Assembly (NCBI RefSeq): GCF_009695915.1
Contig: NZ_VUMZ01000005.1
Location: 1 to 64,000 of the forward strand
Length of the DNA: 64,000 nt
Source of the DNA: Hornefia butyriciproducens
GTDB lineage: Bacteria > Bacillota > Clostridia > Peptostreptococcales > Anaerovoracaceae
Direction of reading: 5' to 3'
A model generated the notes under the pieces. It saw only the letters and a program-made list of their open reading frames with translations, was not told the origin of the DNA and ran no database searches. The translations under genes and the position numbers were made by a program. Of the stretch, positions 45,322 through 62,917 are shown piece by piece (the stretch's first letter is position 1; each line of letters starts with the position of its first letter).

Positions 45322-46679
45322 GCATGAAGGATAAACTGGGATACGGGTCGGCCTCGCTGGCGGACTCGCTCTCGTATAATTTCATCGCGACATATTTCAT
45401 GTTCTTTCTGACGACCGCGGTGGGCATCCGGCCGGCGACGGCGGGAATGATCACTGTGATCGGAGCGGTCTGGAACGGTTTTATCAATCCGGTAATCGGG
45501 TATTTCGCCGATCATATACGGACCTCACGGGGCCGCCGCCGGCCTCTGATTTTGTTTTCCTCGATACCGCTTGCGCTGACGCTGCTGTTCGCATTCACAG
45601 ACTTTCCCTTTGTTTCCGCGGAGGGAAAGCCGTTTTACTACGGGATTCTGCTGATGCTGTTCTGGCTCAGCTATACCGGGTTTCTGGTGCCGTATCTGGC
45701 GCTTGCCTCGGAGTACACGACGGACTATGACCAGAGGACGATCCTGCGGTTCTTCGCGTCCATGTTCAATATGGCGGGAGCGCTGGTAAACTTCCTGATT
45801 CCTTCGGTGGCGGTGGAATGGCTGCAGGATGCGGGCGTTCCGCTGTCTCTTGCCTGGAGTCTGGTGGGAGGAATGGTCGGTGCGGTCTGTTTCATTTCAA
45901 TCCTTCTGACGTTTTTGTCGTCAAAGAAAAAGGATCCGCCCTGTGTGGATTCCGGCGCTCGCCCGGGGTTTAATCCTGCGGATGTTTTTCGGGAGTATGT
46001 TTCTCTGTTTACGCTGGGACCCATCCGGCAGCTGATTGTTGCCAGCATTGCCACTCTGATCTGTTACAGTATCATGCTTGCGGATATGGTATATTTTCTG
46101 ACATATAATATGAAGTGTACTGCGCTTCAGATGTCTTTATTCATGTCTCTGCGGGCGGTATTCGGGATTCTGCTGATTCCGCTGGTGGCAAGACTGACCG
46201 TTCGGTTCGATAAGAGGGGAGCGTTCGGGCTGCTCTCTGTAATCGGCATAGCCGGCATGGTGGTTCTGAGAATGACCGGCGTCGGGTCTACAGGCGGAAT
46301 CATCTGCTATATGCTGATGGTTACTCTTTGTACGGCGATCTACTGGAGTCTGATGCCGTCGATGTATCTGGATGTCTGCGACTATGACAGGCTGAAGACG
46401 GGAAAGCGGCGGCAGGCCACAATTGTTTCGTTTCAGGGGCTGGTGGAGGCTGTGTCCGGAGGAATCGGCACCATGCTGCTGGGGTTTCTGTTACAAAATG
46501 CAGGGTTCGACGGCGGCGCGCCGGTACAGACAGCGTCCGCCTGCGAGTGGATATTCAACTGCACAACGGTAATTCCCGGCGCGTTCCTGGCAATCGCGAT
46601 TATCGCCGTGTGGCGGTATCCGCTGACCCGCTCCGTCCATCGGGAAATTATGGAGAAAATCGGAGAGACCGGGGAGTAA
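45309..46679 (+). CDS. GPH/MelB-type sugar:cation symporter
   Basis: A 456-residue transporter of about 12 membrane helices in the glycoside-pentoside-hexuronide branch of the major facilitator group. KLGYGSASLADSLSYNF at the start, PVIGYFADHIRTSRGRRRP after helix 2 and DVCDYDRLKTGKRRQATI near residue 355 are the family signatures. No glycosidase or sugar kinase is close, so the substrate is unknown. The ATG at 45309 lies in the end of the YolD-like gene; an internal ATG at 45324 has no ribosome site. Confidence 0.85.
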   Translation: MERLSMKDKLGYGSASLADSLSYNFIATYFMFFLTTAVGIRPATAGMITVIGAVWNGFINPVIGYFADHIRTSRGRRRPLILFSSIPLALTLLFAFTDFPFVSAEGKPFYYGILLMLFWLSYTGFLVPYLALASEYTTDYDQRTILRFFASMFNMAGALVNFLIPSVAVEWLQDAGVPLSLAWSLVGGMVGAVCFISILLTFLSSKKKDPPCVDSGARPGFNPADVFREYVSLFTLGPIRQLIVASIATLICYSIMLADMVYFLTYNMKCTALQMSLFMSLRAVFGILLIPLVARLTVRFDKRGAFGLLSVIGIAGMVVLRMTGVGSTGGIICYMLMVTLCTAIYWSLMPSMYLDVCDYDRLKTGKRRQATIVSFQGLVEAVSGGIGTMLLGFLLQNAGFDGGAPVQTASACEWIFNCTTVIPGAFLAIAIIAVWRYPLTRSVHREIMEKIGETGE

Positions 46680-46763
46680 GGCAGTCGGACTTAGACGGGA
46701 ATTTAATGAGCAGATACTGATTAAAAGGGAACCGAGGTCAGCATATTTGGAAATGCCTTAATA

Positions 46764-46792
46764 TTGACAATGCTATATATACACTGTACAAT
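46764..46792 (+). promoter_or_regulatory. Sigma-A promoter of the ABC exporter operon
   Basis: TTGACA (46764-46769), 17-bp AT-rich spacer, TACAAT (46787-46792), 64 bp before the ATG at 46856. I see no terminator for the preceding gene in 46680-46763. Confidence 0.75.
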
Positions 46793-46855
46793 AAAGAGCA
46801 AAGTGTTGGAGTTCCGTAACAGAAGTACAATTATAATTGGGTATATCTCTAGACT

Positions 46856-47914
46856 ATGCGAGGGATTTTCTACAAGTCGAAACTGATTTTTACAATTTTC
46901 GTTGCAGTCGCTGTGCTGTTTACACTGGCGGGGGTTTCCTTTGCTGAACAAAGAAAGAATGCCAGGCCGGCTGACTTTCTGTCGGATCAGTTTGTCGTGT
47001 TTGAAATATATAATGCGGCGAATTTTACAGAGCAGGATCTGCTGCGGATTATGGAGCGGAACTGTGGCGACGGAGGTTTTCTGTGTATGAAAAAGTATAC
47101 GGCGAAAGAAGGCTGCTCTATATATTTCAGTCCAGGGATGAACTGCAAAATCAGGGTTACAGAGGGCAGGTCCTTTTCCCGGAAGGATTTCGACGAAGGG
47201 AAAAATGTCGCCATTGTGACCGGTGACCGGCAGAATCAGCCATCCCATATCTCTGTCAGCCAGAAAAGATACGATGTGATCGGAAGCTGCTCCTCGCAAA
47301 GGGCAGGACAGGCTTCCGACTGGTTCATCAATATGAATGCAGAAAATCTGAAGAATAAGAGAGTGTACGGCTACTATTTTTTCGATACCGACAGGCAGGA
47401 CTGCCTTGGAACAGCAAAGAAAATTGCTGGAGCTGTGAAGGACGCCTGCCCCACAGCATCAGTGGCGGCAGAAAAGGGAATGAGCAGAATCGGGCGGGGT
47501 ATGCGGCCGGAAAAGACAAATTATACGAATATGCTGGGATTCCTTATCGCTACGGCTGTCCTTGTTTTGCTCAATTCCTTTTCTGCGTGTTATTACTGGC
47601 TTGAGACACGGAAAAAAGAAATTGCGATTCGGAAGATGGCGGGAGCGCGAGGCAGGAATATCGTTGCATGGCTCTGCAGAGAATACGTCGTAATTCTGTT
47701 GCTGGCCTTTTTTACCGGTGTGGTGCTGTCTGAGTTATTCCTGCGGATTGCAGTATATCTGCCTGTGGCAAATTCCGTTGAACTGATGTTTGGAACGCAT
47801 ATTTCACTGCCGGGCACACTGTCCGGGATGGCGCTGCTTGCACTGATCGGTGCAGTTGTCATCACTGCGACTCTGAAGCGGTTCGGCAGAAATGCGATTG
47901 CGAGTAGATTATAG
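46856..47914 (+). CDS. ABC transporter permease, FtsX/MacB type (first)
   Basis: A 352-residue protein with one membrane helix at residues 9-30, an extracytoplasmic domain (about 31-220) and three C-terminal helices (about 225-247, 273-297, 318-340). The motif ETRKKEIAIRKMAGARGRNI after the second helix is the FtsX coupling segment. Its own permease partner is 2 bp downstream and its ATPase follows. The gene is somewhat AT-richer than its neighbours. Such triads export peptides or sense envelope damage. The substrate is unknown. Confidence 0.85.
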   Translation: MRGIFYKSKLIFTIFVAVAVLFTLAGVSFAEQRKNARPADFLSDQFVVFEIYNAANFTEQDLLRIMERNCGDGGFLCMKKYTAKEGCSIYFSPGMNCKIRVTEGRSFSRKDFDEGKNVAIVTGDRQNQPSHISVSQKRYDVIGSCSSQRAGQASDWFINMNAENLKNKRVYGYYFFDTDRQDCLGTAKKIAGAVKDACPTASVAAEKGMSRIGRGMRPEKTNYTNMLGFLIATAVLVLLNSFSACYYWLETRKKEIAIRKMAGARGRNIVAWLCREYVVILLLAFFTGVVLSELFLRIAVYLPVANSVELMFGTHISLPGTLSGMALLALIGAVVITATLKRFGRNAIASRL

Positions 47915-47916
47915 AA

Positions 47917-49095
47917 ATGAGAAGAAATTTTTTTACATTCTTTTGGCAGGATATAAGGCGGAACCTGCTTAATTACCTTGTCATTCTGGTTCAGATCGTT
48001 CTGGCTGCGGTGGTTTTGTGCTATGCGCTGACACTGGCCTGTAACGGATGGGTTGCGACGAAGAAGTTTGAAAACCTCAACGACAGGAGCAGCATATATA
48101 AGCTGTCTGCGGATCTCGAAGAATCGGAAATGGACGAACTTTCCAACAGCAGGGCAGAAGCCCGTGCCCTGTATCGCCTTATTCAGGATATGTATGCATC
48201 AGACAGCCTGGAATGTGTGACAGCCGATGACTCTATGGATTTTACCTTCGGAAAACACCGGAAGGAGTATGCCGGACTCGACAAAAAACTGCGGGTTCCA
48301 AGTGATAGAACGGTTTCGGTAGATATGGCGGTTGTCAGCAGCAATTTTTTTCGTTTTTTCGGGATAAAGGGGAAGTATGATCTGCGCCCGGAAGGGAAGC
48401 GCCAGTCGCTGATACTGGGAAATGACTTCAGAAAATACTATCGTGTCGGAGATGTCCTTCATGATTCAGTTGATGATGAATATGTTGTGAAGGGGTTTCT
48501 TCCGAAAGGCGCGTACTATGTGAATCCATTTGAGAAGAACGAACCATTTTATCTGGATCGCTATTTTATCACCGCTGTTCTCCCGCAGCGCGATGACGCC
48601 ATGGGGTCGTTTATCACCGTCATGAGTACTTTTGTTGTTGAAAAAAAGAAGAATGCGCTCCATGAGATGATGAGCAGGGAAAGCATGAAGAAACTGGATT
48701 TTCTCTACACGGAAAACTATACTGATGAGATCCGGGAATCCGTCACGGATATTCTGAACAGCGTAATGACGATGGCTTCAATCGCGGTCATTATTCTTAT
48801 CTTTTGTTCCGTAGGACTCATCGCGAATTTACTGCATTTTATGGAAAGCAGCATGAAGGAGTTCGCCGTCAATATGCTGTGCGGGGCACGGCGCAGAGAT
48901 ATTATCCTTCGTCTTGTCGCGCAGGTTGGAAGTATGACCGTAATTGCAGGCTTTGTAACGCTTTTCGTATGGCAATTCTCAGGACTGGCAGTGGTGACGC
49001 TCCTTATTCTGGTGATTTATGCATTTATTGCGCTGGCTTATCCAGTCCGTCAGCTGAAGAAAATCGAAATAATTGAAATCATAAGGAGAAAATAG
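47917..49095 (+). CDS. ABC transporter permease, FtsX/MacB type (second)
   Basis: A 392-residue partner permease with a first helix at residues 17-40, an outside domain of about 240 residues, and three C-terminal helices from about residue 285. The coupling sequence SSMKEFAVNMLCGARRRDII resembles that of the first permease, so the two likely form a heterodimer. It stands 2 bp after the first gene and directly abuts the ATPase gene. Confidence 0.85.
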   Translation: MRRNFFTFFWQDIRRNLLNYLVILVQIVLAAVVLCYALTLACNGWVATKKFENLNDRSSIYKLSADLEESEMDELSNSRAEARALYRLIQDMYASDSLECVTADDSMDFTFGKHRKEYAGLDKKLRVPSDRTVSVDMAVVSSNFFRFFGIKGKYDLRPEGKRQSLILGNDFRKYYRVGDVLHDSVDDEYVVKGFLPKGAYYVNPFEKNEPFYLDRYFITAVLPQRDDAMGSFITVMSTFVVEKKKNALHEMMSRESMKKLDFLYTENYTDEIRESVTDILNSVMTMASIAVIILIFCSVGLIANLLHFMESSMKEFAVNMLCGARRRDIILRLVAQVGSMTVIAGFVTLFVWQFSGLAVVTLLILVIYAFIALAYPVRQLKKIEIIEIIRRK

Positions 49096-49770
49096 GTGGC
49101 ATACAGTATAGAAATTGATCAGATCTGCAAGACGTACCGCGGGGTGGGCTATGAGGTAAAAGCGCTCCGGAATGTATCGATGAAAATCAATACGGGAGAG
49201 ATGACTGCAGTCGTGGGTACCTCTGGTTCCGGAAAAACAACGCTGCTGAATATTCTGGGGCTCATCGATTCACCGGATTCCGGGACATATCGGCTGGGAG
49301 ACATTGATACAGGAGAGTGTACGGAAACTGAGCGTGCGGGCCTCAGAAATTCCAGACTGGGGTTTATTTTGCAGGAATTTGCGCTAATCGACCGATATAC
49401 TGTGGAGCAGAATATAAAAATCCCTCTGCTTTACTCCAACGTTCCGAAAAGGGAGTGGAATATGAGAATTGATGCGATGCTGGATAAGCTGGGAATAGCA
49501 GAGAAGAAAAAAAGGCGGCCGGCAGAATTGTCGGGAGGGCAGAAGCAGCGAGTGGCAATCGCACGAGCACTGATCAGTCAGGGAGACGTGATATTGGCAG
49601 ATGAACCGACAGGAGCGCTGGATTCCCGAACTTCATTAGAAATAATAGATCTGTTCCAGAGGATTAAAAGCGAAAATAAAACAATTGTTCTGGTAACGCA
49701 TGATCACGATATTGCAGCCGAATGCGACAGAATTCTGCATATTGAAGACGGCAGATTATATGAAGATTGA
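49096..49770 (+). CDS. ABC transporter ATP-binding protein, MacB/LolD type
   Basis: A 224-residue ATPase. Walker A GTSGSGKTTLLN lies at residues 41-52, the signature LSGGQKQRVAIARAL near 142, Walker B ILADEPTGALD near 162, and the switch His in LVTHDHD. It begins directly after the second permease with GTG at 49096. It completes the exporter triad and ends convergently with the arsR-type gene, 12 bp away, without a visible terminator. Confidence 0.93.
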   Translation: MAYSIEIDQICKTYRGVGYEVKALRNVSMKINTGEMTAVVGTSGSGKTTLLNILGLIDSPDSGTYRLGDIDTGECTETERAGLRNSRLGFILQEFALIDRYTVEQNIKIPLLYSNVPKREWNMRIDAMLDKLGIAEKKKRRPAELSGGQKQRVAIARALISQGDVILADEPTGALDSRTSLEIIDLFQRIKSENKTIVLVTHDHDIAAECDRILHIEDGRLYED

Positions 49771-49782
49771 CGCCTCGGGGAG

Positions 49783-50115
49783 CTACAGCACGCTGAATTT
49801 CCGTGTTGCGTCGATGTATCTGGCGAGAACGCCCAGATTAGCGTAGAAGTAGGAGAATTTCTCGACCCGGCGGACCTCCACCAGCCCGGATTTGACAAGC
49901 CGCTTCATGTGCTGGGAGATTGTGGCCTGCGCATAGTCAAAAACCTGCACCAGATCCTTGGTGCAGACAGGCTGCATTTCCTTATTACAGTGCATGATGT
50001 AGCGGAACAGCGCCAGACGGACAGGGTGCGCCAGAGCATCTGAAACGGTTGCGATCAGCTCTGTATCTAATCCCTGAAGTTCCTCACTGACACCTTTGTC
50101 TCTTCTGATTCTCAT
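49783..50115 (-). CDS. ArsR-family transcriptional regulator
   Basis: A 111-residue winged-helix repressor. The HTH region reads VFDYAQATISQHMKRLVKSGLVEVRRV, preceded by LAHPVRLALFRYIM. Cys residues in MHCNKEMQPVCTKDL are a possible ligand site. The ATG at 50115 has GGGAGG 11 nt upstream; the frame stays open to 50268 but only this part fits. It is divergent from the sigma-54 activator gene, with a shared 143-bp control region. It may act on the neighbouring ABC genes or on the activator; the sequence does not decide. Confidence 0.8.
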   Translation of the reverse strand: MRIRRDKGVSEELQGLDTELIATVSDALAHPVRLALFRYIMHCNKEMQPVCTKDLVQVFDYAQATISQHMKRLVKSGLVEVRRVEKFSYFYANLGVLARYIDATRKFSVL

Positions 50116-50148
50116 GAATGAGTATACCTCCCCGGCGAAAAAACGCCA

Positions 50149-50177
50149 TATATCAATATACAGGATTTCTGCGTCAA
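50149..50177 (-). promoter_or_regulatory. Possible promoter and operator of the ArsR-type gene
   Basis: On the minus strand TTGACG (50177-50172), 17 bp, GATATA (50154-50149). The -10 overlaps the palindrome TATATCAATATA (50149-50160), the kind of site an ArsR dimer binds, so self-repression is plausible. A GGCG/CGCC hairpin (50134-50147) lies just downstream. Confidence 0.4.
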
Positions 50178-50197
50178 TTTCAACCTCTCCGATAGGT

Positions 50198-50211
50198 GCA
50201 AAAATATTTGC
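50198..50211. promoter_or_regulatory. Palindrome GCAAAAATATTTGC, copy 1 (activator promoter)
   Basis: A perfect 14-bp palindrome between the divergent genes. Its right half overlaps the -35 box of the activator gene (50208-50213), a position for negative autoregulation. Two identical copies lie beyond the 3' end of the same gene. Confidence 0.8.
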
Positions 50212-50236
50212 ATTCAAGCGGGAAATAGTGTAAAAT
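50208..50236 (+). promoter_or_regulatory. Sigma-A promoter of the sigma-54 activator gene
   Basis: TTGCAT (50208-50213), 17 bp, TAAAAT (50231-50236), 22 bp before the ATG at 50259. The -35 overlaps the palindrome. Confidence 0.65.
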
Positions 50237-50258
50237 ACAGGTAGCGGAGGTATCAGGA

Positions 50259-51656
50259 ATGGACGCAATGTGCTATAAAAAAATAATCGAGGAACTGATC
50301 GATCTGATCGACGAGGGCGTTTACATCGTGGACAGCGACGGTGTCGGTCTCTTCTACAATGAAGAGATGGCGGAAAATGAGAAGATTAACGTTACCGATG
50401 TTATCGGAAGGGATTTTCACACGGCATTCCCGGGAATCAAGCTCAATGAAAGCACCATGTACCAGGCCCTGCACAAAGGGATCGCCACGAGGAACAAGCA
50501 GCAGACCTATACGAACCTGTACGGAAAAGAGGTCACAACCGTCAACAGCACCGTACCTGTAGAGCTGGACGGCCAGCGTATCGCCGCGATTGAAGTGGCC
50601 CGTGACATCACCAATATCCGTTCCCTGAGCGACACCATTCTTCAGCTGCGGGAGGACAGAAATCCCCCGGAAAAGGCCGCCAAGGCCAGTATCAAACGCT
50701 ACAATTTCAACGATTTAGTCGGAGAAAATCTGCGTTTCCGAAGCGTCGTAAACAGAGCCAGGAGAGCGGCCGGGAACAACGCCTCAGTGTTCATCTATGG
50801 CGAGACGGGAACCGGCAAGGAACTCTTCGCACAAAGCATTCATTACGAGAGCCGGCGGAAGGACAAGCCGTTTCTGGCACAGAACTGTGCGGCTCTACCG
50901 GAATCCCTGCTGGAAGGAATTCTTTTCGGGACGGCCAGAGGCGGATTCACCGGAGCCGTTGATCGTGCGGGACTGTTTGAACAGGCTAACGGCGGAACGC
51001 TTCTGCTTGATGAGCTCAGTGCTATGCCCTATGATCTGCAGAGCAAGCTTCTGCGTGTGCTTCAGGAGGATTACATCCGCCGTGTCGGTGGAACAAAGGA
51101 TATTCCCATCGATGTCCGCATCATCGCAACCGTCAACGAAGCGCCGGAAAAACTGATTGCGGAGGGTCTTCTGAGAAAGGACCTCTATTACAGACTGAAT
51201 GTCGTGGGAATTTCCATTCCTCCGCTGCGGGAGCGTAAGGATGACATTCCGGTTCTGGTGGATTCCTTTCTTGAGAAATATAACAAAAAATATGACAAGC
51301 AGATCTGGATGGTGTCAGAGAACGCTCTCCAGAGACTCTGTGCCTACAACTATCCGGGAAATGTACGGGAGCTGGAGAACATCATCATTCAGTCTGTGGC
51401 CATGGCGGAAACGGAACACGTTCTGACGGAGCGTCTGCTCCAGATGCCGATTCATGTCGATGAGATCGGCCGGAGCGCGGAGAAGTGGGACGGACGTGCG
51501 CCCCTGAACGAATATATGGCAGAAATGGAGAAGATGATTATTCAGGGCGCATTGATCGACGCCGACGGAAATGTGACGAAGGCCGCCGCGATGCTGCAGA
51601 TCAAACGGCAGACACTCCAGCATAAGCTGAAGAAGTATGGACTGACCCCACAATAG
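50259..51656 (+). CDS. Sigma-54-dependent transcriptional activator with PAS domain
   Basis: A 465-residue enhancer-binding protein. Residues 1-120 form a PAS-like sensor. The AAA+ domain (about 150-390) has Walker A GETGTGKE (181-188), the sigma-54 contact loop GGFTGA (228-233, consensus GAFTGA with Ala changed to Gly), Walker B TLLLDELSA, and the arginine-finger region DLYYRLNVV. The C-terminal Fis-type HTH is GNVTKAAAMLQIKRQTLQHKL. No receiver domain is present, so the PAS domain likely senses a small molecule. It stands directly upstream of the sigma-54-promoted ornithine genes, and is the obvious activator. Its stop overlaps the first base of palindrome copy 2. Confidence 0.93.
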   Translation: MDAMCYKKIIEELIDLIDEGVYIVDSDGVGLFYNEEMAENEKINVTDVIGRDFHTAFPGIKLNESTMYQALHKGIATRNKQQTYTNLYGKEVTTVNSTVPVELDGQRIAAIEVARDITNIRSLSDTILQLREDRNPPEKAAKASIKRYNFNDLVGENLRFRSVVNRARRAAGNNASVFIYGETGTGKELFAQSIHYESRRKDKPFLAQNCAALPESLLEGILFGTARGGFTGAVDRAGLFEQANGGTLLLDELSAMPYDLQSKLLRVLQEDYIRRVGGTKDIPIDVRIIATVNEAPEKLIAEGLLRKDLYYRLNVVGISIPPLRERKDDIPVLVDSFLEKYNKKYDKQIWMVSENALQRLCAYNYPGNVRELENIIIQSVAMAETEHVLTERLLQMPIHVDEIGRSAEKWDGRAPLNEYMAEMEKMIIQGALIDADGNVTKAAAMLQIKRQTLQHKLKKYGLTPQ

Positions 51657-51692
51657 CAAAAATATTTGCAGAAAAAGAGCAAAAATATTTGC
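51656..51692. promoter_or_regulatory. Two copies of GCAAAAATATTTGC, candidate upstream activating sequence
   Basis: Perfect copies at 51656-51669 and 51679-51692, 23 bp centre to centre (about two helical turns). A degenerate third, GCAAAAAGCAAATG, lies at 51698. They sit 160-190 bp before the -24/-12 promoter, the normal distance for enhancer sites of sigma-54 activators. Confidence 0.8.
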
Positions 51693-51762
51693 ATCGAGCA
51701 AAAAGCAAATGACAAAAAATTACAGTATTTTTCTGATAATTCATAATTTCGAAAGATATATT

Positions 51763-51803
51763 GTGGTTTTAAAGGGTTTTTCTTTGTAAAACCACTTTTT
51801 TTT
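51763..51803 (+). terminator. Rho-independent terminator of the activator gene
   Basis: GTGGTTTT pairs with AAAACCAC around a 17-nt loop and is followed by eight T. It lies between the enhancer sites and the sigma-54 promoter and stops read-through from the activator into ord. Next to it ATTCTTG/CAAGAAT (51811-51842) forms a wider inverted repeat. Confidence 0.85.
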
Positions 51804-51846
51804 GTATAAAATTCTTGAAGACTGTATTGTGTATACAAGAATTGCG

Positions 51847-51865
51847 TTGGCATAAGGCTTGCTTT
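51847..51865 (+). promoter_or_regulatory. Sigma-54 (RpoN) -24/-12 promoter of the ornithine operon
   Basis: TTGGCATAAGGCTTGCTTT contains the invariant GG (51849-51850) and GC (51861-51862) separated by exactly 10 bp, matching TGGCAN7TTGC. Transcription would start near 51874. The roughly 90-nt leader to ord has a GGCAC/GTGCC pairing region. Confidence 0.9.
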
Positions 51866-51962
51866 GTACTATAGGCACGGGATTGTTTCCCTATGGGGTG
51901 CCGTAAGGCAGGCCATTTCGGATAAGGTTAACTATTTGTTATGAAGAAAAGGAGAAAAGCAA

Positions 51963-53024
51963 ATGAAAAATGTACAGGTAATCCTTTGGGGATTAGGCGC
52001 TATGGGCGGCGGAATCGGAAAAATGCTGGCAAAGAAAAAGGGCGTTGATATCGTTGGCGGAATCGACATCGGCGACAAGATCGGCAAAAACCTCTATGAC
52101 GTCGTTCCCGGCATTGAGCAGGGCGACAGACCGGACGTTATCGTAGGAACTCCGGAAGACGTCATCAAGCCGGGCGCTGCAGACATCGTTGTCGTTTGCA
52201 CAAATTCGTTCACAAAGGATGTTTACGAGAAGCTCGTTTTCGTTATGGAGCGCGGCATCAACGTGATCACCTCCGCAGAAGAAATGGCATATCCGCAGGC
52301 ACAGGAGCCTGAACTGGCGAAGAAACTGGATGAATGCGCCAAGAAGAACGGCGTTACCGTACTGGGAACAGGAATCAACCCGGGCCTCATCATGGACCTG
52401 CTGGTCATCCTCTGGACCGCGGCCTGCGAGGATGTGAACCACATCACCTCCAGAAGAGTCAACTCTCTGTCACCGTTCGGACCTGCCGTTATGGAAGAGC
52501 AGGGCATCGGTATCTCTGTTGAGGACTTCAACAAGAGAAAGGCAGAAGGAACGATGGCCGGCCACGTCGGATTCGCAGAGTCTGTCGGCATGATGTGCGA
52601 AGCTCTGGGCTGGAAGCTGGATGAGTTCGGACAGGACATGGAGCCGATCGTTACAGATGTAGACAGAAAGTCCCCGTATGGATTCGCTCCTGCGGGCAGC
52701 GTTGCAGGTGTTGCCATGAAGGGCTGGGGAATCATCGACGGCGAGAGAAAGATCGATATGGATCATCCGCAGCAGATCGAGCCTGAGCAGGTTGGCGTAC
52801 ACACCGGTGACTATGTCATTCTGGATTCTGTACCGCCGGTCAACATGGCTAACAATCCGGAGATCGAGGGCGGCATCGGAACCATGGCGATGATCATGAA
52901 CTGCATTCCGCACGTAATCAATGCGAACCCGGGTCTGAAGACCATGATCGACATCCCTGTTCCGCATGCAATTATGGGCGACTTCAGAGATCAGATCGAC
53001 GAAGAGAAAAAACTGGTTAAATAA
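51963..53024 (+). CDS. ord: 2,4-diaminopentanoate dehydrogenase
   Basis: NAD(P)-dependent oxidative deamination of 2,4-diaminopentanoate to 2-amino-4-oxopentanoate, second step of ornithine oxidation. The 353-residue protein has the Rossmann motif VILWGLGAMGGGIGKML (residues 6-22) and a dihydrodipicolinate-reductase-like second domain with GTGINPGLIMDLLVIL. AAGGAG lies before the ATG. It is the first gene after the sigma-54 promoter. Downstream, a 171-bp spacer with imperfect hairpins (CCTTCG/CGAAGG) leads to ortA. Confidence 0.95.
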   Translation: MKNVQVILWGLGAMGGGIGKMLAKKKGVDIVGGIDIGDKIGKNLYDVVPGIEQGDRPDVIVGTPEDVIKPGAADIVVVCTNSFTKDVYEKLVFVMERGINVITSAEEMAYPQAQEPELAKKLDECAKKNGVTVLGTGINPGLIMDLLVILWTAACEDVNHITSRRVNSLSPFGPAVMEEQGIGISVEDFNKRKAEGTMAGHVGFAESVGMMCEALGWKLDEFGQDMEPIVTDVDRKSPYGFAPAGSVAGVAMKGWGIIDGERKIDMDHPQQIEPEQVGVHTGDYVILDSVPPVNMANNPEIEGGIGTMAMIMNCIPHVINANPGLKTMIDIPVPHAIMGDFRDQIDEEKKLVK

Positions 53025-53195
53025 GAACCGCAGTGTCCTGACTCCGGTGACGGCCGGAGAAGCAGGAACAGAGCTGTCCCTTCGGCGGCATGCTCCGGCG
53101 AAGGAGGAACGGACGCGGACAAAAACACAAAATATCTGGGCGGGACGGGAAGCCGTTTCCCGCTCAGTCATTCATGAAAAAAGGAGAACCAAGCA

Positions 53196-53495
53196 ATGGC
53201 AAAAAAAGGAGACTGGGTACGTATTCACAGTATCGTTCTCAAGGCCGAAGAAAGAACCGGAAAGATCCCGGAAGATACGCAGAAATGCGATCTGGAAATG
53301 TGGACCAAAGGGAGTCTTCTGGCTGATGCAGAGATCGGCGATACAGTTGAAGTAGAAACAGCGGTGGGCCGTATTGAGAAGGGCACACTGATCGAGGTAG
53401 GCCCCTACTACACCCACAGCTACGGAAAATTTGTTCCTGAGATTATCGAGATCGATAAGCAGCTGCGTAAAATCACGAGAGGAGGGGACAAATAA
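53196..53495 (+). CDS. ortA: 2-amino-4-oxopentanoate thiolase, alpha subunit
   Basis: The 99-residue small subunit of the thiolase that splits 2-amino-4-oxopentanoate with CoA to acetyl-CoA and alanine. It begins AKKGDWVRIHSIVLKAEERT and is basic and beta-rich. AAGGAG stands before the ATG. Its stop overlaps the ortB start by one base, as expected for a heteromeric enzyme. Confidence 0.93.
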   Translation: MAKKGDWVRIHSIVLKAEERTGKIPEDTQKCDLEMWTKGSLLADAEIGDTVEVETAVGRIEKGTLIEVGPYYTHSYGKFVPEIIEIDKQLRKITRGGDK

Positions 53496-54901
53496 TGGCA
53501 CTGGCGAAAGATTATGATTCCGTAATGGGAAGATCCAATGAAATTCAGAAGAAGGCGCTGGGTCTTGACTATGAGAAATATGAATCCGGTTCCATCGCCT
53601 TCGATTATGAAGCCCTGATGAAGGATACAGGATATACGCTGGACGAGATCACCAAGATTCAGTCCAGAACCGCGGTAGGAAACACACCGCTCATCGAGCT
53701 GAGAAACATCAGCAAGCTGGCGAGAAAATACGCGAAGCCGGGCTACGGCGCAAGAATTTTTGCGAAGGATGAGGCTGCTAATGCTTCCGGAAGCTTCAAG
53801 GCCAGAAGAGCCGCATGTGCAGTGGCACACGCCAAGAAGCTGGGCTACAAGGGTGTTATCGCCGCAACCTCCGGAAACTACGGTGCGGCAGTTGCGTCCC
53901 AGGCGGCGATGCAGGGACTGGACTGCATCATCGTTCAGGAGTGCTATGACTCCAACGGAGTCGGACAGCCGGAAATTGTAGAGAAGGCAAGAAAATGCGA
54001 AGCCTACGGCGCAGAGGTTATTCAGCTGACTGTAGGACCTGAACTGTTCTACACCTTCCTGTCCGTTCTGGAGGACACCGGATATTTCAATGCGTCTCTG
54101 TACTCCCCCTTCGGTATTGCCGGAATCGAGACTCTGGGTTACGAGATCGCGATGCAGTGCCGCGAGAGAGTGGGCAAGGATCCGGATATGGTAGTCTGCA
54201 CCAACGCGGGCGGCGGAATGATGACCGGTACGGCGAGAGGTCTGCTGAAGGCGGGCGCTGTTGATACCAAAATGGTCGCGGCGTCCATCGATCTGACCGG
54301 ACTGTCCATGGCTTCCGACAAGCAGTTCAACCTGAAGTCCTGCACCACCGGACATACCGGATTCGGCGTTCCTTACGCGACTGATCCGGATCACTCCGAC
54401 GTTCCGAGGAGTGCGGCGAGACCGCTGCGTTACATGGATCGTTACGTTACGGTCAAGCAGGGCGAGGTTATGTACATGACAGAAGCTCTGGCACAGCTGG
54501 AGGGAATCGAAAGAGGACCTGCGGGCAACACAGCGCTGGCCGCGGCGTTCTCCCTGGCACAGGAGCTGCCGGAGGATGCAGTTCTGGTCATCAGTGAGAC
54601 AGAGTATACCGGAGCCGGAAAACACATCCAGCCGCAGCTGTCCTTCGCGAGAGACAACGGCATTGAAATCAAGTTCGGAAATCCGACTGAGGAAGACAAG
54701 CCGGGCGTGAACGTCGTTCTGCCGGCAGACCCCGGTCTGATCCAGTGCCACGACGCAGATCTGCACCACTTCAGACAGTCCCTGATCAGAAAGGCTGTCA
54801 AAAAGGCGGGCGGTGTAACGCCGACAGATGCGGATCTTCAGTTCCTCGCAGAGGAGACCAAGACCGATGTTGCGTTCGTAAAGGAGACGCTGGGACTTTA
54901 A
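53495..54901 (+). CDS. ortB: 2-amino-4-oxopentanoate thiolase, beta subunit (PLP)
   Basis: A 468-residue fold-type II PLP protein related to threonine synthase. The Schiff-base lysine is Lys102 in ASGSFKARRA. The phosphate-binding loop is NAGGGMMTGTARGLL, and SGNYGAAVASQ provides substrate contacts. It carries out the CoA-dependent cleavage together with OrtA. GGAGG in the ortA end serves as its ribosome site. A hairpin follows in the spacer to oraS. Confidence 0.95.
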   Translation: MALAKDYDSVMGRSNEIQKKALGLDYEKYESGSIAFDYEALMKDTGYTLDEITKIQSRTAVGNTPLIELRNISKLARKYAKPGYGARIFAKDEAANASGSFKARRAACAVAHAKKLGYKGVIAATSGNYGAAVASQAAMQGLDCIIVQECYDSNGVGQPEIVEKARKCEAYGAEVIQLTVGPELFYTFLSVLEDTGYFNASLYSPFGIAGIETLGYEIAMQCRERVGKDPDMVVCTNAGGGMMTGTARGLLKAGAVDTKMVAASIDLTGLSMASDKQFNLKSCTTGHTGFGVPYATDPDHSDVPRSAARPLRYMDRYVTVKQGEVMYMTEALAQLEGIERGPAGNTALAAAFSLAQELPEDAVLVISETEYTGAGKHIQPQLSFARDNGIEIKFGNPTEEDKPGVNVVLPADPGLIQCHDADLHHFRQSLIRKAVKKAGGVTPTDADLQFLAEETKTDVAFVKETLGL

Positions 54902-54911
54902 TGGATATAAC

Positions 54912-54943
54912 GCCTGTCTCCGTCGGGAACGTCGGAGGCAGGC
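54912..54943 (+). other. Spacer hairpin between ortB and oraS
   Basis: GCCTGTCTCCG pairs with CGGAGGCAGGC over an 11-bp stem with one G-T pair and a 10-nt loop. ATATATTGG follows instead of a T-tract, so stabilising the upstream message is likelier than full termination. The 123-bp spacer 54902-55024 has no gene. Confidence 0.5.
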
Positions 54944-55024
54944 ATATATTGGAAGACCGACACTCATAACTGGGCGCCCGTTTCACCGACAGAGGGCGGG
55001 GCTCAGGGAAAGGTAGAAAAGAGA

Positions 55025-55396
55025 ATGATAAGAGAAGACGATTTTGAAAAAAGAAGAGTTGAAAAAGGTATCGCCGATCTTACAGACGAGCAGCTGTACG
55101 ACAAGTTCTGGGAGCTGTGCACACAAGTTGTGGATCCGCTCATCGAGCTGGGCAGAAAGAACACGACTCCTTCCGTAGAGAGAGCCGTTCTTCTGCGTAT
55201 GGGAGTATCCTCCCTTGACACACAGAAAATCGTAGAGGGCGCTATGGACAGAGGCCTTATGGGTCACGGCACCGGCCACATCGTCTACAGAATTTCCAAG
55301 GACAAGGGAATTTCTATCCGCGAAGCTTCACAGGCATTGGCTCAGGGTGAATACTGGGATGATGCAGTAGCTATTTTCGGCAAGGAGGAGAAGTAA
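55025..55396 (+). CDS. oraS: D-ornithine 4,5-aminomutase, S subunit
   Basis: The 123-residue small subunit of the B12- and PLP-dependent aminomutase that turns D-ornithine into 2,4-diaminopentanoate, near the 121 residues known for Clostridium sticklandii. It shows the segment RMGVSSLDTQKIVEGAMDRGL and a helical, charged structure. It sits one base before oraE, giving matched synthesis. Confidence 0.95.
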   Translation: MIREDDFEKRRVEKGIADLTDEQLYDKFWELCTQVVDPLIELGRKNTTPSVERAVLLRMGVSSLDTQKIVEGAMDRGLMGHGTGHIVYRISKDKGISIREASQALAQGEYWDDAVAIFGKEEK

Positions 55397-55397
55397 G

Positions 55398-57650
55398 ATG
55401 GCAGATATGGTACTGAATAAGAATGAAAAACTGGACGTAAGAGAAATCCTGAAGGATCTCGAAAACTACGCCCCGAGAAGACATGGATGGCACTGGAGAG
55501 AGCCGGCCCCGAATCTTGAGATGGGACCCTTCACGTTCCACGACATGTCCAAGCCGCTGAAACAGAGCATCGGCCTTCCGCCGGCGAAGTTCTTCGGCGA
55601 CATCGATCCGCAGCCGCAGCCGGTCATCACCACAGAGATCGCTTCCGGAAGATTCGAGGACGATATCAGAAGAATGAGAATGGCGGCATGGCACGGCGCT
55701 GACCATATCATGGTTATCCGTCATATGGGCCAGTCTCATATCGACGGCCTGATGGAAGGTACTCCCCAGGGAATCGGCGGCGTTCCTATCACCAGAAAAC
55801 AGGTCAGATGCCAGAGAAAGGCTCTGGATCTCATCGAGGATGAGGTCGGCCGTCCGCTGAACTACCACTCCTACGTATCCGGAGTAGCCGGACCGGACGT
55901 TGCGGTCATGTTCGCAGAGGAGGGCATCAACGGCGCTCACCAGGATCCGCAGTATAACGTTCTGTACAGAGACATCAACTGTGTAAGATCCTTTGTTGAC
56001 GCCTGCGAATCCAAGAAGGTTCTGGCATGGGCAGAGATCCTGCAGATCGATGGTGCGCACAATGCGAACGCTACCGCTAGAGAAGCATGGAAGGTTATGC
56101 CTGAGCTGATCGTGCAGCACGCCATCAACTCCCTGTTCTCGGAGAAGGTCGGAATCAAGCCGGAGAACATCTCCCTGTCCACCGTACCGCCGGATGCGGC
56201 TCCTGCCCCGGCGATGTACCTCGACCTGCCTTACGCGGTCGCGCTGAGAGACATCTGCGGCAGATACAAAATGAGAGCCCAGCAGACAACCAAATACGTC
56301 TGCTCCTCCGTCAGAGAAGCGACGGTAACACACGTGATGAACATGGTCATCTCCAAGCTGACCAGCGCGGACATTCAGTCCACCATCACACCGGACGAGG
56401 GAAGAAACGTTCCCTGGCACATTTACAACATGGAAGCCATCGACAACGCCAAGCAGGCCTTCGTATACATGGACGGCTTCAACGAGCTGGTTGAACTGAA
56501 GAAGGACGGACCGCTCCGCGAGATGGCGAGAGAGATCAAGGAAAGAGCGACACTGTTCATGGAGGAGATCGTCGAGGTCGGCGGTTACTTCAACGCAGTT
56601 GAGCAGGGATTCTTCGTTGATTCTGCGAAATACCCCGCCAGAAACGGTGACGGAATTGCCAGAAAGATCAAGGGCGGCGTCGGCTACGGATTCATCTTCC
56701 CGAGAGAGGATGACTACATGGCTCCTGTTACGGCGCACTTCGGATACAACAACGTGGAGCAGTACGGCGGCGACCCGGAGAATCCGAGCGCGCTGATCGG
56801 CGGCTGCACATTCGAGGACAGAAGCAAGATCGTCTATATCGACGAGCTGGATGAAGTCGACAACGTCAACGTGAGACTTGAGAAGGTCAAGAAGTATCTT
56901 GACGGCGAGGCGATCAAGCCTGAGATGGAATGGTGCGGAGACGGCGTCGTCATGCTGACCATGATGGTGCCGGCGAACGTGAGAACCGCAGAGGCTACCG
57001 GTCTGCAGATCGCGGAGAAGATGGGTCTGGATTCACCGGAGGTCATCTCCAAGGAAATCATGCACCCGGCCGAGGGTACAAGAATCGAGATCAAGGGCAA
57101 ACTGACCTTCGATGTCGATCCGAAGTCCCTGGTACTGCCTCCGCCGCCGCATCATCTGCCGGATGAGGTTCTGTACAAGGAATTCAAGGATCATCACATG
57201 AGAGTCGTCTGCGGAACCGTCGGTGACGACGAGCACTCCGTCGGACTCCGTGAGATCATCAACATCAAGCACGGCGGAATCGAGAAATGGGGAATCGAGG
57301 TTAACTACCTGGGTACCTCAGTACCGGTAGAAAAACTGGTAGACGCGGCAGTCGAGCTGGATGCTGACGCAATCCTGGCTTCCACGATCATCTCTCATGA
57401 CAACATCCACTACAAGAACATGAAGAGGATCAACGAGCTGGCCATCGAAAAGGGTATCCGCGACAAGGTTATCATCGCGGCAGGCGGAACACAGGTATCC
57501 CCGGAGGATGCACGCGCCACCGGAATCGATGAAGGCTTCGGAAGAGACTCCCACGGTATCGACGTAGCGACATACCTCTGCGAAGAGGCGATGAGACGCC
57601 GCGGCGAACTGCCCCCGGGAGGACACCTGAAGGGCATCGACGAAGACTGA
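55398..57650 (+). CDS. oraE: D-ornithine 4,5-aminomutase, E subunit (B12, PLP)
   Basis: The 750-residue large subunit. An N-terminal TIM barrel binds PLP and substrate. The C-terminal B12 domain has DxHxxG as D611-E-H613-S-V-G616, with His613 the cobalt ligand. The Schiff-base lysine should be Lys624 (NIKHGG), 11 residues after the His, the same spacing as His618 and Lys629 in the C. sticklandii enzyme. GGAGG precedes the ATG. A terminator follows 67 bp after the stop, before the next gene of the cluster. Confidence 0.97.
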   Translation: MADMVLNKNEKLDVREILKDLENYAPRRHGWHWREPAPNLEMGPFTFHDMSKPLKQSIGLPPAKFFGDIDPQPQPVITTEIASGRFEDDIRRMRMAAWHGADHIMVIRHMGQSHIDGLMEGTPQGIGGVPITRKQVRCQRKALDLIEDEVGRPLNYHSYVSGVAGPDVAVMFAEEGINGAHQDPQYNVLYRDINCVRSFVDACESKKVLAWAEILQIDGAHNANATAREAWKVMPELIVQHAINSLFSEKVGIKPENISLSTVPPDAAPAPAMYLDLPYAVALRDICGRYKMRAQQTTKYVCSSVREATVTHVMNMVISKLTSADIQSTITPDEGRNVPWHIYNMEAIDNAKQAFVYMDGFNELVELKKDGPLREMAREIKERATLFMEEIVEVGGYFNAVEQGFFVDSAKYPARNGDGIARKIKGGVGYGFIFPREDDYMAPVTAHFGYNNVEQYGGDPENPSALIGGCTFEDRSKIVYIDELDEVDNVNVRLEKVKKYLDGEAIKPEMEWCGDGVVMLTMMVPANVRTAEATGLQIAEKMGLDSPEVISKEIMHPAEGTRIEIKGKLTFDVDPKSLVLPPPPHHLPDEVLYKEFKDHHMRVVCGTVGDDEHSVGLREIINIKHGGIEKWGIEVNYLGTSVPVEKLVDAAVELDADAILASTIISHDNIHYKNMKRINELAIEKGIRDKVIIAAGGTQVSPEDARATGIDEGFGRDSHGIDVATYLCEEAMRRRGELPPGGHLKGIDED

Positions 57651-57717
57651 TAACTGCAGCGCCGGCGTAAAAGACGCGGCACAGCGGGTAAGGCTTTGTA
57701 CGAATACAGCAGATACA

Positions 57718-57751
57718 CCGGGGCGGGCATGAACCCGTCCCGGATTTTTTT
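57718..57751 (+). terminator. Terminator inside the ornithine cluster, after oraE
   Basis: CCGGGGCGGG, loop CATGAA, CCCGTCCCGG (10 bp with one G-T pair), then ATTTTTTT. It separates ord-ortAB-oraSE from the reactivator-like gene, orr, nfo and buk, which would then be made from read-through or an unseen promoter. I see no clear promoter between 57752 and 57845. Confidence 0.85.
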
Positions 57752-57845
57752 AGAGCAGAGCTTTCACAAAGCAGGCAAAGAGCAAGCAAACGGAGGAATC
57801 TGCGGGAAACCGGCAGATCATCAGGACATTGGAGGACAGAAACAA

Positions 57846-59582
57846 ATGAATGTAGACGTATTGGTAGCGGAAATCGGATCCACAACGACAGTGGTCAACG
57901 CATTCACGGATCTGGATACCGATCATCCGTGCTTCTGGGGGCAGGGTCAGGCACCGACTTCTGTACTCGACGGAGACGTGAGGGTCGGACTTCAGGGCGC
58001 TGTCGACGACCTTTGTAAGAACAAAGGAATAAGCAGCATTGAATACGGACAGATGCTGGCGACTTCTTCCGCGGCCGGCGGACTGAAGATGACCGTGCAC
58101 GGACTGGTTTATGATATGACAGCCAAGGCTGCGAAGGAAGCGGCGCTGGGTGCGGGCGGAATCATTCATTATGTGACCAGCGGACGGCTTCGCCGGACTG
58201 ACCTGAAGAAGATCCGGGAAATTCAGCCGAATCTGATTCTTATCGCGGGCGGCGTGGATTACGGCGAGCGGGATACCGCACTGGACAATGCCGAGATGAT
58301 CCGCGGCATGGGACTGAAGGTTCCGGTCATCTATGCGGGCAACGTCGAGAACAAGGAGGAAATCAAACTGATTTTCGAGGACAGTGAGCAGGAGCTGTAT
58401 ATCGTCGAGAATGTGTATCCTAAAATCGATGCGCTGAATGTAGAGCCCTGCCGGAAGGTGATTCAGCAGGCCTTTGAGCAGCATATTACTCATGCACCGG
58501 GGATGGAGCACGTCCGCGACATGGTCAGCGGCCCCATCATTCCTACGCCGGGTGCGGTGATGGAGTGTACAAAGGTGCTGTACGACTGCATCGGGGACTT
58601 AATCGTTCTGGACGTGGGCGGAGCGACTACGGATCTGCATTCCGTTGCGGTGGAATCGGACAAGGTCGCCAGAATCATGACTTCTCCGGAACCGAAGGCC
58701 AAGCGGACGGTGGAGGGCGATCTGGGCGTTTTCGTAAATCGCTACAAGGTAATCGAATCCATCGGTGAGGAAAAACTGAGAGAGGAATGCGAGAATGAGC
58801 TCCATATCGATCTTGATAAGACACTGGAGACATACTACGCGATTCCGAAGAACGAGGATGAAATAAAACTGGTTGAGAGGCTGACCCGTGAGGCCGTGTT
58901 CCGGGCGACGGAGCGGCACGCCGGACAGCTCCGGTATATCTATGGACCCTCCGGCCGAAGCACTGTGGCAGAAGGTAAAGATCTGACACAGGTCAAATAC
59001 ATTGTGGGAACCGGAGGCGCGCTGACACGGCTGCCACACCGGGTGGAAATCATGGAAGAGATTCCGGGAGAGAATATCACCGGCATGAGGCTGTTCCCGA
59101 CTGACCACGCAAAGGTTCTGGTGGATAATGATTACATCATGGCGTCTCTGGGCGTTCTGTCCAAGACCAACCGTGAAGCGGCAATTAAGCTGCTGGAAAA
59201 GAGTCTTGATTTTGAATTCCCGGAGAAGGTTGAGAATGAGATCTATAAGTCCTCAATCAAGGCGATGGAGGATGTCGAAGCCGAATATGAGGCGAAGAAG
59301 AAAAAGGAAGAGGAGTATGCGGAGCACATCCGGGAAATGGAAGAAATGGGCTATGATATGAGCGCGTACAAGGAAGAGGAGCCCATCGGCGGTGCCAATG
59401 CCAGAGGTCCGGAGGGAAGCCACCATGATCCCGCCAAGGAAGGCATCGAGGCAGGCGGCGGTCTGCAGCCCGGCTGGAACCGGGAGAAGCAGGAAGACAT
59501 CTCCAAGCCATGGAACAACTGCAACCGCGAGTGTGACATCTGCACTCATACCCACTGCCCCAACAACCAGAGCAGACGATGA
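57846..59582 (+). CDS. MutL/GlmL-family protein of the ornithine aminomutase cluster
   Basis: A 578-residue ASKHA-fold ATPase. The phosphate-1 motif is VAEIGSTTTVVNAF (residues 6-19), and the second acidic site is IVLDVGGATTDLHSV. GlmL-type proteins accompany B12-dependent mutases and are thought to reactivate them; a service role for OraSE is likely (inference). The core ends near residue 460. A further 115 residues follow: a Lys/Glu-rich helix, a Gly/Pro/His region, and a tail with Cys spaced C-x3-C-x2-C-x4-C (CNRECDICTHTHC). GGAGGAC stands before the ATG at 57846. A reading open from 57696 lacks a ribosome site. Confidence 0.85.
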   Translation: MNVDVLVAEIGSTTTVVNAFTDLDTDHPCFWGQGQAPTSVLDGDVRVGLQGAVDDLCKNKGISSIEYGQMLATSSAAGGLKMTVHGLVYDMTAKAAKEAALGAGGIIHYVTSGRLRRTDLKKIREIQPNLILIAGGVDYGERDTALDNAEMIRGMGLKVPVIYAGNVENKEEIKLIFEDSEQELYIVENVYPKIDALNVEPCRKVIQQAFEQHITHAPGMEHVRDMVSGPIIPTPGAVMECTKVLYDCIGDLIVLDVGGATTDLHSVAVESDKVARIMTSPEPKAKRTVEGDLGVFVNRYKVIESIGEEKLREECENELHIDLDKTLETYYAIPKNEDEIKLVERLTREAVFRATERHAGQLRYIYGPSGRSTVAEGKDLTQVKYIVGTGGALTRLPHRVEIMEEIPGENITGMRLFPTDHAKVLVDNDYIMASLGVLSKTNREAAIKLLEKSLDFEFPEKVENEIYKSSIKAMEDVEAEYEAKKKKEEEYAEHIREMEEMGYDMSAYKEEEPIGGANARGPEGSHHDPAKEGIEAGGGLQPGWNREKQEDISKPWNNCNRECDICTHTHCPNNQSRR

Positions 59583-59603
59583 GAATGAATGGAGAGTGAA
59601 ACG

Positions 59604-60695
59604 ATGTATCCGAAACTGGTAATAGATCTGAAAAAACTGCAGGGTAATCTCGACGCTGTCGCGGAGATTACAAAAGACCGCGGAGGATGTTCGCTGATGA
59701 TCGTCACCAAGGGACTCTGCGCCGATCCGGAAATGGCCGGGCTGGTGGCGAGGGATCCGAAGGTGGATTACATGGCAGACTCCCGGGTGAAGAACCTGGC
59801 AAGCTACGCCGATATGGCGCGTGCCAACGGCAAGAAAACGGTGCTTCTGCGCATTCCGATGCACGATGAGGTGGAGGGCGTCATTCAATATGCGGACATT
59901 TCCTTCAACTCGGAGCTTTCCACCATCCGACTGCTGAACGAGGAAGCGGGCAGAGTCGGAAAAGTTCACGACATCGTTCTGATGATCGACCTGGGCGATC
60001 TGCGGGAAGGTATCTTTTTCCGGAATGAAGATCTGATCTGGGAGACCGTGGAGGAAATCCTGCAGATGGAGAACATCAACCTCTACGGTATCGCTGTGAA
60101 CCTGACGTGCTACGGAGCGATTATTCCGAAGTATGACAATCTTTCTCAGCTGGTGGATATCGCAAGGAAGATTGAGGAGAAGTACGACATCCGTCTGCAG
60201 ATGGTGTCAGGAGGGAATTCCAGCTCGATCTATCTGATCGACAAAGGTGAACTGCCGGAGGGTATCAACAACCTGCGTCTCGGAGAAGCGTTCCTGCTGG
60301 GAAATGATACTGCCTACGAGACAGATCTTCCCGGCACGGTCGGCGATACGGTGACGCTGCAGGCGCAGATCGTGGAGCTGAAGGAAAAACCTTCGCTGCC
60401 CATCGGCGAGGTCGGAGTGGACGCCTTCGGCCAGAAGCCGTACTATGAGGACCGCGGAATCATGAAGCGTGCGATTATCGCAGTCGGAAAACAGGATACG
60501 GATCTGGGCAGCATGACGCCGACGGATCCGCAGATTGAAATCATGGGCGGAAGCTCCGACCATACTATTCTGGACGTTACACACTGCGACAGAGACTACA
60601 AGGTCGGGGATGTTGTCACCTTCGAGCTGGGATACGGCGGTATGCTCAAGGTAGCGACCAGTCCCTATGTGGAGAGGGAATATGTCCGCGGATAA
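59604..60695 (+). CDS. orr: Ornithine racemase
   Basis: PLP enzyme that makes D-ornithine from L-ornithine, feeding OraSE. The 363-residue protein has an alanine-racemase-like barrel with the PLP lysine Lys36 in [12 protein letters not shown], then NLTCYGAI and [11 protein letters not shown] phosphate contacts. The ATG at 59604 has GGAGAG 8 nt upstream. It overlaps the nfo start by 14 bp. Confidence 0.95.
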
Positions 60696-61530: not shown

Positions 61531-61536
61531 ACAGAC

Positions 61537-62616: not shown

Positions 62617-62697
62617 AGGCGGCTTTCTGTGAATTCTCCGTCGGTCTGATACTGCCTTGATGGGCGCTGACAAAGGTCGGTTAACCGCGCCGCGGAG

Positions 62698-62715
62698 CGC
62701 ACACCGGAGTGTGCG
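62698..62715. other. Perfect 7-bp hairpin after buk
   Basis: CGCACAC, CGGA, GTGTGCG within the 301-bp gap 62617-62917. No T-tract follows. The gap also has two terminators, given separately, and no gene that I can see. Confidence 0.45.
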
Positions 62716-62752
62716 TTATAGTAACTCAGGGCGGATTTCCTACCACTCAGGC

Positions 62753-62804
62753 AAAAAAAGACCACTTTCTCCGGAATCTGATTATACTGAAGGTGAAAGT
62801 GGTT
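62753..62804 (-). terminator. Terminator for the phosphohexomutase gene
   Basis: Read on the minus strand CCACTTTC pairs with GAAAGTGG around a 25-nt loop and is followed by TCTTTTTTT. The gene's stop is at 62918. Confidence 0.65.
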
Positions 62805-62820
62805 AAGATAATAACATGAA

Positions 62821-62856
62821 AACCGGCAGGCGCCAGGCGAAGCCTACCGGTTTTTT
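62821..62856 (+). terminator. Terminator of the buk transcript
   Basis: AACCGGCAGGC pairs with GCCTACCGGTT (one mismatch) and is followed by TTTTTT. It ends rightward transcription, facing the convergent phosphohexomutase gene. Confidence 0.8.
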
Positions 62857-62917
62857 CATGCGTGTTTGTCGTATGCCCGCCGAGCGCCTCGCGAAAAACG
62901 CGGAACAGCAGAACCGT

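Follow-up and report, generated by a model that had tools for sequence, protein, structure and literature searches.

Previously, sigma-54 regulons were reconstructed in 57 Clostridiales species by Nie, Dong and Yang in 2019 (PMC6615313), who gave OrdR its name and predicted that OrdR and sigma-54 control ord-ortBA-oraSEF-orr-nhaC in five species. According to the main text of that work, OrdR belongs to the groups with a distinct upstream activating sequence (UAS) motif, whose letters are placed in Fig. 3 and Table S3; the UASs lie mostly 100 to 250 bp before a TTGGCATN5TTGCT promoter, and 32 of 39 groups have multiple UASs. In C. difficile 630, OrdR is CD0441 and a -24/-12 promoter has been reported at ord (PMC7438776); in the sigL-mutant table of that report, the ord row is marked NR, and its promoter is printed with letters identical to those of the hadA row. 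Gut anaerobes, C. difficile among them, make use of ornithine Stickland oxidation. The present study provides an operator sequence and a geometry for a regulator that we found in print only as a prediction, and the circuit thereby becomes directly testable.

The window analysed here is a stretch of 64,000 nucleotides of Hornefia butyriciproducens (contig NZ_VUMZ01000005.1, positions 1 to 64,000). A first-pass annotation of this DNA had described a palindrome present in three perfect copies, once at the promoter of a PAS/AAA+/Fis-type activator gene and twice 160 to 190 bp before a textbook -24/-12 promoter in front of ord. Our window scan recovered three exact copies of GCAAAAATATTTGC, all on the plus strand (table below). 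The word, however, is an imperfect dyad, as its symmetry is broken at 2 of 14 positions, and its conserved part is GCAAA-N4-TTTGC. With up to two mismatches to GCAAAAATATTTGC allowed, the window holds 8 strand-matches where 0.47 were expected, a number reached in none of 100 shuffles. One copy with two mismatches lies at 53750, inside ortB. In the whole genome (2,438,520 bases, 98.46% complete), GCAAANATNTTTGC occurs at only three places, the same as the three window copies, and its reversed control occurs nowhere. The looser GCAAAN4TTTGC has 7 places in the genome versus 2 for its control. A wider regulon in the source genome was considered and rejected: of the four other GCAAAN4TTTGC places, none is paired and 3 are inside open frames, while the place at C24:158892 is intergenic and its only sigma-54-like match (one mismatch) overlaps the site itself.

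Operator 1 begins 61 bp upstream of the ordR ATG, and operators 2 and 3 follow directly downstream of ordR. The centres of the latter two are ~162 and ~185 bp upstream of the -24/-12 promoter, in keeping with both the distance first claimed and the 100 to 250 bp of the OrdR group. TGGCATAAGGCTTGCT, a perfect -24/-12 element, is alone in the window in matching TGGCAYN5TTGCW exactly (expected number 0.12; such a match arose in 12 of 100 shuffles). From its position, the ord transcript is predicted to start near 51874. The genome also carries the sigma-54 gene (rpoN). Downstream, we take the second thiolase gene to be ortB from its place in the operon, the start codon of or-4 at 57846 was chosen within a listed open frame beginning at 57696, and the gene after orr encodes an AP endonuclease family protein.

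Features of the ordR-ord region in window coordinates
Feature	Position	Strand	Evidence or remark
Divergent ArsR/SmtB-type regulator gene	49783..50118	-	HTH_20 8.4e-11, HTH_5 2.6e-7; probably outside the circuit
Operator 1, GCAAAAATATTTGC	50198..50211	+	Overlaps predicted ordR promoter; upstream site conserved in relatives
Predicted sigma-A promoter of ordR, TTTGCA-18 bp-TAAAAT	50207..50236	+	Promoter scan, 9/12 matches; -10 position conserved; -35 lies within operator 1 plus one base beyond
ordR, 465 aa, PAS sensor + AAA+ + Fis-type HTH	50259..51656	+	PF08448/PF00989, PF00158, PF25601, PF02954
Operator 2 (predicted UAS)	51656..51669	+	First base is last base of ordR stop codon
Operator 3 (predicted UAS)	51679..51692	+	23 bp from operator 2
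-24/-12 sigma-54 promoter of ord operon, TGGCATAAGGCTTGCT	51848..51863	+	Counterpart in 61/61 related gaps
ord, 2,4-diaminopentanoate dehydrogenase	51963..53024	+	PF19328 3.3e-85
ortA, AKP thiolase subunit	53196..53495	+	PF22010 2.3e-42
ortB, PLP-dependent AKP thiolase subunit	53495..54901	+	PF00291 1.8e-54
oraS, D-ornithine 4,5-aminomutase small subunit	55025..55396	+	PF16552 1.3e-49
oraE, D-ornithine 4,5-aminomutase large subunit (B12)	55398..57650	+	PF09043, PF16554, PF02310
or-4, GlmL-related ornithine degradation protein	57846..59582	+	NF040744 2.4e-219, above cut-off
orr, ornithine racemase	59589..60695	+	NF040742 7.3e-156, above cut-off

The gene between the copies encodes an activator of the kind first described, with PAS, Sigma54_activat, AAA lid and HTH_8 domains (PF00158 6.6e-61, PF02954 4.1e-11, PAS_4 2.3e-8, PAS 2e-6). 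It has the marks of a sigma-54 enhancer-binding protein, namely a sensor, a Fis-type HTH, and an AAA+ domain with Walker A (GETGTGKE), a GAFTGA-type loop (GGFTGA) and Walker B (LLLDE); the GGFTGA variant is common to 44 of 78 family rows, duplicates kept in. Its gene adjoins ord-ort-ora-orr, as in the OrdR group. In a tree of 32 rows, built without a published OrdR sequence, the window protein falls in a 16-row family clade with a support of 100/100, and the other ord-linked activators fall outside that clade. The protein is not a PrdR by NCBIfam NF041552, as it reaches 381 bits against a cut-off of 795, and the genes downstream of it are ord/ort/ora rather than the roc arginine-catabolic genes controlled by RocR. 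It may work like RocR, but we do not file it as one.

The arrangement was followed through relatives, for which we used the best 80 of 110 species-collection loci with an activator relative, 30 loci taken from a family search of 197 genomes, 47 further family loci added later, and a class search of 391 genomes, 35 of which have ord. By shared 12-mers, 96 rows reduced to 73 non-redundant ones. The first-pass annotation had proposed a search for the site near other ord loci, and among 61 non-redundant activator-ord gaps, 57 carry an exact site and 41 carry at least two; if one arm mismatch is allowed, only a single gap is without a site. Where the activator is at least 54% identical to that of the window (47 gaps), two exact sites are found in 31, one in 12 and none in 4. 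The 14 more distant gaps have two exact sites in nine cases, one in four and three in one; locus L045 is counted as distant here by identity, yet the tree puts it in the family clade. The distance between neighbouring exact sites is 23 bp in 30 pairs, 22 bp in 9, 21 bp in 2 and 71 bp in 1, which places 41 of 42 pairs at 21 to 23 bp. A sigma-54 promoter (no more than one mismatch over 11 positions) is present in all 61 gaps, and in the 57 that have a site the nearer one precedes it by a median of 162 bp (range 67 to 332). When these gaps were dinucleotide-shuffled, one site arose in 0.3 to 0.4% and two sites in none.

Among the 47 further family loci, ord follows the activator in 36, and 5 of the other 11 meet a contig end within 1 kb. 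A hand tally of these 36 ord-bearing loci gave two exact sites in 24, one in 7 and none in 5 (31/36 with a site). Class-wide, an exact upstream site is present at 26 of 30 ord loci, a set that includes the window's own and four other family loci and overlaps with the species-collection loci; 6 more matches came without a locus. Two of the four class-wide loci lacking the site also lack ortA, and two have a short upstream region (805 and 1232 bp). The loci without an exact site in the three sets (4 of 47 close gaps, 5 of 36, and 4 of 30) count against the proposal. We chose 20 OrdR-positive family genomes by hand; they hold 62 GCAAAW4TTTGC places, of which 44 belong to the OrdR locus (one of these at a distance of 1.2 kb), and the 18 off-locus places are about the background of genomes without OrdR. 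The latter was taken from 20 relatives with the ArsR gene and without a close OrdR (some of these genomes are 72 to 80% complete), which hold 16 scattered places and no tandem site pair. Sensor, enhancer, promoter and pathway had been proposed to form a single unit, and the conservation of the same arrangement in Clostridia supports this.

The third copy had been placed at the activator's own promoter, and operator 1 indeed overlaps the predicted sigma-A promoter of ordR, which a promoter scan blind to the operator reported. The same scan gave 8 sigma-A-like matches in the region versus 2.6 expected. An exact site within 220 bp upstream of the activator is present at 50 of 53 non-redundant family loci versus 1 of 18 distant loci, counts from which L067 and L068 were excluded, and the sole distant locus, L045, is the one that joins the family clade. 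By eye, two of the three family loci without the exact site (L021 and L044) show a version with one mismatch. For the third, L015, the own-promoter site lies upstream of two inserted genes, as seen at L203 of the same genome. There, the two genes separate the site from ordR, and the site is at the head of the operon, 19 nt before TATACT; these genes (L203:910-2066) are ThiF/MoeB-like and rhodanese-like, the latter named by eye.

A -10 hexamer was defined as a TAnnnT downstream of the site that agrees with TATAAT at four or more of its six positions. In the 50 closer loci, the distance from the site to this hexamer is exactly 19 nt in 42 cases and exactly 7 nt in 6. Over 500 sets of base-shuffled tails, no offset had a count above 7, a level that the six 7-nt cases by themselves do not surpass; offset 14 scores 13 of 50, with hexamers that overlap the 19-nt ones. 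The 47 further loci are more diverged, and some are near-duplicates of the first set. Of these, 38 have a site upstream, 6 have one confined to the first codons (+29) and 3 lack it altogether. Among the 32 non-duplicate further loci with an upstream site, the hexamer follows after 19 nt in 17, 18 nt in 3 and 31 nt in 3, and 9 have no hexamer (shuffle maximum of 6 in 500 shuffled sets). Thus, the 19-nt register recurs in loci outside the set that revealed it, although not in every locus. The 31-nt register would leave the -35 free of the operator. Loci of the 19-nt register have TTTGCA as the hexamer 18 bp upstream of the -10 in 41 of 42 cases, where only the final A is informative because the search pattern already dictates TTTGC. 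For the window and its closer relatives, therefore, the operator and the predicted sigma-A promoter of the activator overlap.

Because of this overlap, negative autoregulation of ordR from operator 1 suggests itself, and we lean towards it; we rate it lower than we otherwise might because the 19-nt register is less frequent in the 47 further loci. The operator word was also seen in the first codons of ordR at +29 at L170, L183, L185, L188, L189 and L192, and also at L167 and L178; it could act as a coding-region operator or simply follow from the LQ..LQ peptide encoded there.

Operator 1 might instead be activating or neutral, with OrdR bound there activating the sigma-A promoter of ordR or the site serving as a remote extra enhancer of ord from ~1.6 kb away. 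In the 19-nt register, the centre of the site is near -38, close to the classical positions of class II activators, which argues for this reading, as does the 31-nt register (3 of 32 loci), where the site is upstream of the -35. Distant action also has a precedent, since the rocG promoter is described with a RocR site 1.5 kb, and even as much as 15 kb, away (PMC4941409). Activation is implausible, however, in the six relatives with the 7-nt register, where the site lies between -35 and -10, and in the six relatives with the site in the first codons. Besides that of ord, the window has no second exact sigma-54 promoter, which also weighs against activation, and at L203 the site, together with a sigma-A -10 box, still heads the lengthened operon. 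Moreover, SoxR of B. thuringiensis, a sigma-54 activator, is described as repressing its own gene from its UAS (PMC4941409). Taken together, we regard an activating or neutral role as unlikely, and the third site is probably not activating. The site at 50198 sits between two divergent genes and might belong to the ArsR-type regulator rather than to OrdR; in 64 of 94 family rows, counted with duplicates, an ArsR gene and ordR lie no more than ~5 kb apart (56 divergent and 8 in the same direction). The same site, however, recurs on the ord side of ordR and in distant Clostridia with no ArsR homologue found in the fetched flanks, and the ArsR-bearing genomes without a close OrdR have only the unpaired sites noted above. 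We therefore hold this assignment to be very improbable. The ArsR-type gene was also dropped as a dedicated partner, since 145 of 197 family genomes carry it, some of them lacking OrdR. Its product has conserved SDALAHPxR and VCxKDLV...YAQAT.SQH motifs.

A mainly sigma-A-driven ord operon with minor sigma-54 elements would find some support in the sigma-A-like hexamers upstream of ord at 51784-51812 (9/12 in the promoter scan), but the -24/-12 element is present in every related gap and is reported for C. difficile ord as well (PMC7438776), which leaves this reading hardly credible. Activation of ord by OrdR from the paired sites through sigma-54 is, on the layout of the locus, what we consider highly likely. 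Small hairpins occur at 51874-51930, near the start of many ord leaders, and their sequence is not conserved. A search of 46000-64000 gave no Rfam match for a conserved leader RNA before ord. Folding of the ord leader gave a mean z of -1.1 in 47 family loci (16 below -1.5) and of -0.2 in 9 distant loci (1 below -1.5), and a conserved leader RNA is unproven.

Other loci indicate that the sites go with the targets. At L044, a site pair and a sigma-54 promoter stand before oraS-oraE, and at L201 (1017-2842), a basic amino acid antiporter gene is preceded by a -24/-12 promoter and by a pair of operators with a spacing of 22 bp. The best model for this antiporter is an arginine-ornithine antiporter (519 bits against a cut-off of 591), and a wider antiporter subfamily is matched above its cut-off; judged by this arrangement, the antiporter is likely a second OrdR target. 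An off-locus site pair in genome G086 (L202) has no sigma-54 promoter nearby, which counts against the rule. Orn/Lys/Arg decarboxylase-like genes were seen beside OrdR-like activators at L044 (6120-7715) and, by eye only, at L045 (1079-2524). Furthermore, in a UBA3871 assembly (L041:4917-9008; by sequence, L166 and L200 duplicate this locus), argC-argJ is preceded by an activator 60% identical to that of the window, the activator's own-promoter site, a pair of operators at a 22-bp spacing and a sigma-54 promoter. A search for Ord in this genome, which is ~70% complete, gave no match, an outcome that carries no weight alone, and the other two genomes of the genus (78% and 67% complete) gave no activator match at E 1e-120. 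In this case, which comes from one assembly, a switch for ornithine catabolism has apparently been attached to arginine biosynthesis and, if so, would drive it. The Ord proteins beside family activators fall into two classes of identity to that of the window, about 64 to 68% and 82 to 94%, a split that suggests the exchange of two ord lineages at the ordR locus.

A regulatory unit of OrdR, sigma-54 and ord with an autorepressing third site is, as a whole, the best explanation of these data, and we consider it quite probable. Here, the PAS domain of OrdR would sense a signal, for which ornithine or a close metabolite is the most plausible candidate by comparison with RocR (PMC4348106) and from the targets. 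OrdR, the putative binder of the sites, would then occupy the two GCAAA-N4-TTTGC enhancers 23 bp apart and contact the sigma-54 polymerase waiting at the -24/-12 promoter, which its AAA+ ATPase would open, so that ord-ortAB-oraSE-or4-orr would be transcribed. On operator 1, OrdR would hinder the polymerase at its own sigma-A promoter, and its own level would be held down. We infer the direction of regulation at each site from position and sequence. A broader proposal, that an Anaerovoracaceae-like lineage has recruited the operator onto the activator's own sigma-A promoter, mostly with the operator end as the -35, and that the module is portable, seems to us evenly poised; if true, the same protein would act through identical sites as a repressor of its own housekeeping promoter and as an activator of the ornithine sigma-54 promoter.

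Homologues in Bacillales, 43 to 48% identical, offer a more remote comparison. Similar GCAAA...TTTGC half-sites are found near three of the four (L065, L066 and L068), and no GCAAA-N5-TTTGC site is found near L064. Their spacer is 5 bp in contrast to 4 bp in the window, and they accompany roc rather than ord/ora genes. The recognition helix RQxLQ is common to OrdR and these homologues, and the outgroup is without it. Since the L065 homologue is divergent from an ornithine aminotransferase gene, we read the Bacillales proteins, from position and homology, as probable RocR. SoxR of Bacillus thuringiensis comes close in described behaviour: it is a sigma-54 activator with negative autoregulation through its own UAS and without -12/-24 elements at its own gene, and its targets, unlike those here, are sarcosine genes (PMC4941409).

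The C. difficile operon ord-ortAB-oraSEF-orr-nhaC is like that of the window in its -24/-12 promoter and in having OrdR as the associated activator (PMC7438776). In contrast to the window, its promoter as printed, TTGGCACGATTTATGCTTT, has ATGC at -12, and the operon ends in nhaC where the window has the AP endonuclease family gene (PMC7438776). A promoter at L146 differs by one base from the printed C. difficile one. With the OrdR regulon of Nie et al., the window shares a sigma-54 activator with a Fis-type HTH that would control ord-ort-ora-orr; the published set covers Clostridioides, Clostridium, Geosporobacter and Romboutsia, whereas the window is from another family (PMC6615313). The first-pass annotation knew of no described operator of this sequence for ornithine genes. 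A distinct UAS motif had, however, been predicted for OrdR (PMC6615313), to which the present operator may correspond. A literature search for OrdR with ornithine gave no further title on this regulator. Thus, the circuit is already known as a prediction, and the window is a new example of it from another family. In the main text of Nie et al., a term search for autoregulation gave no match (PMC6615313); the extra feature here is the third site on the activator's own promoter, of which the published text consulted makes no mention. To the known system, our study therefore adds a lineage-specific, probably autoregulatory element, which is useful rather than surprising.
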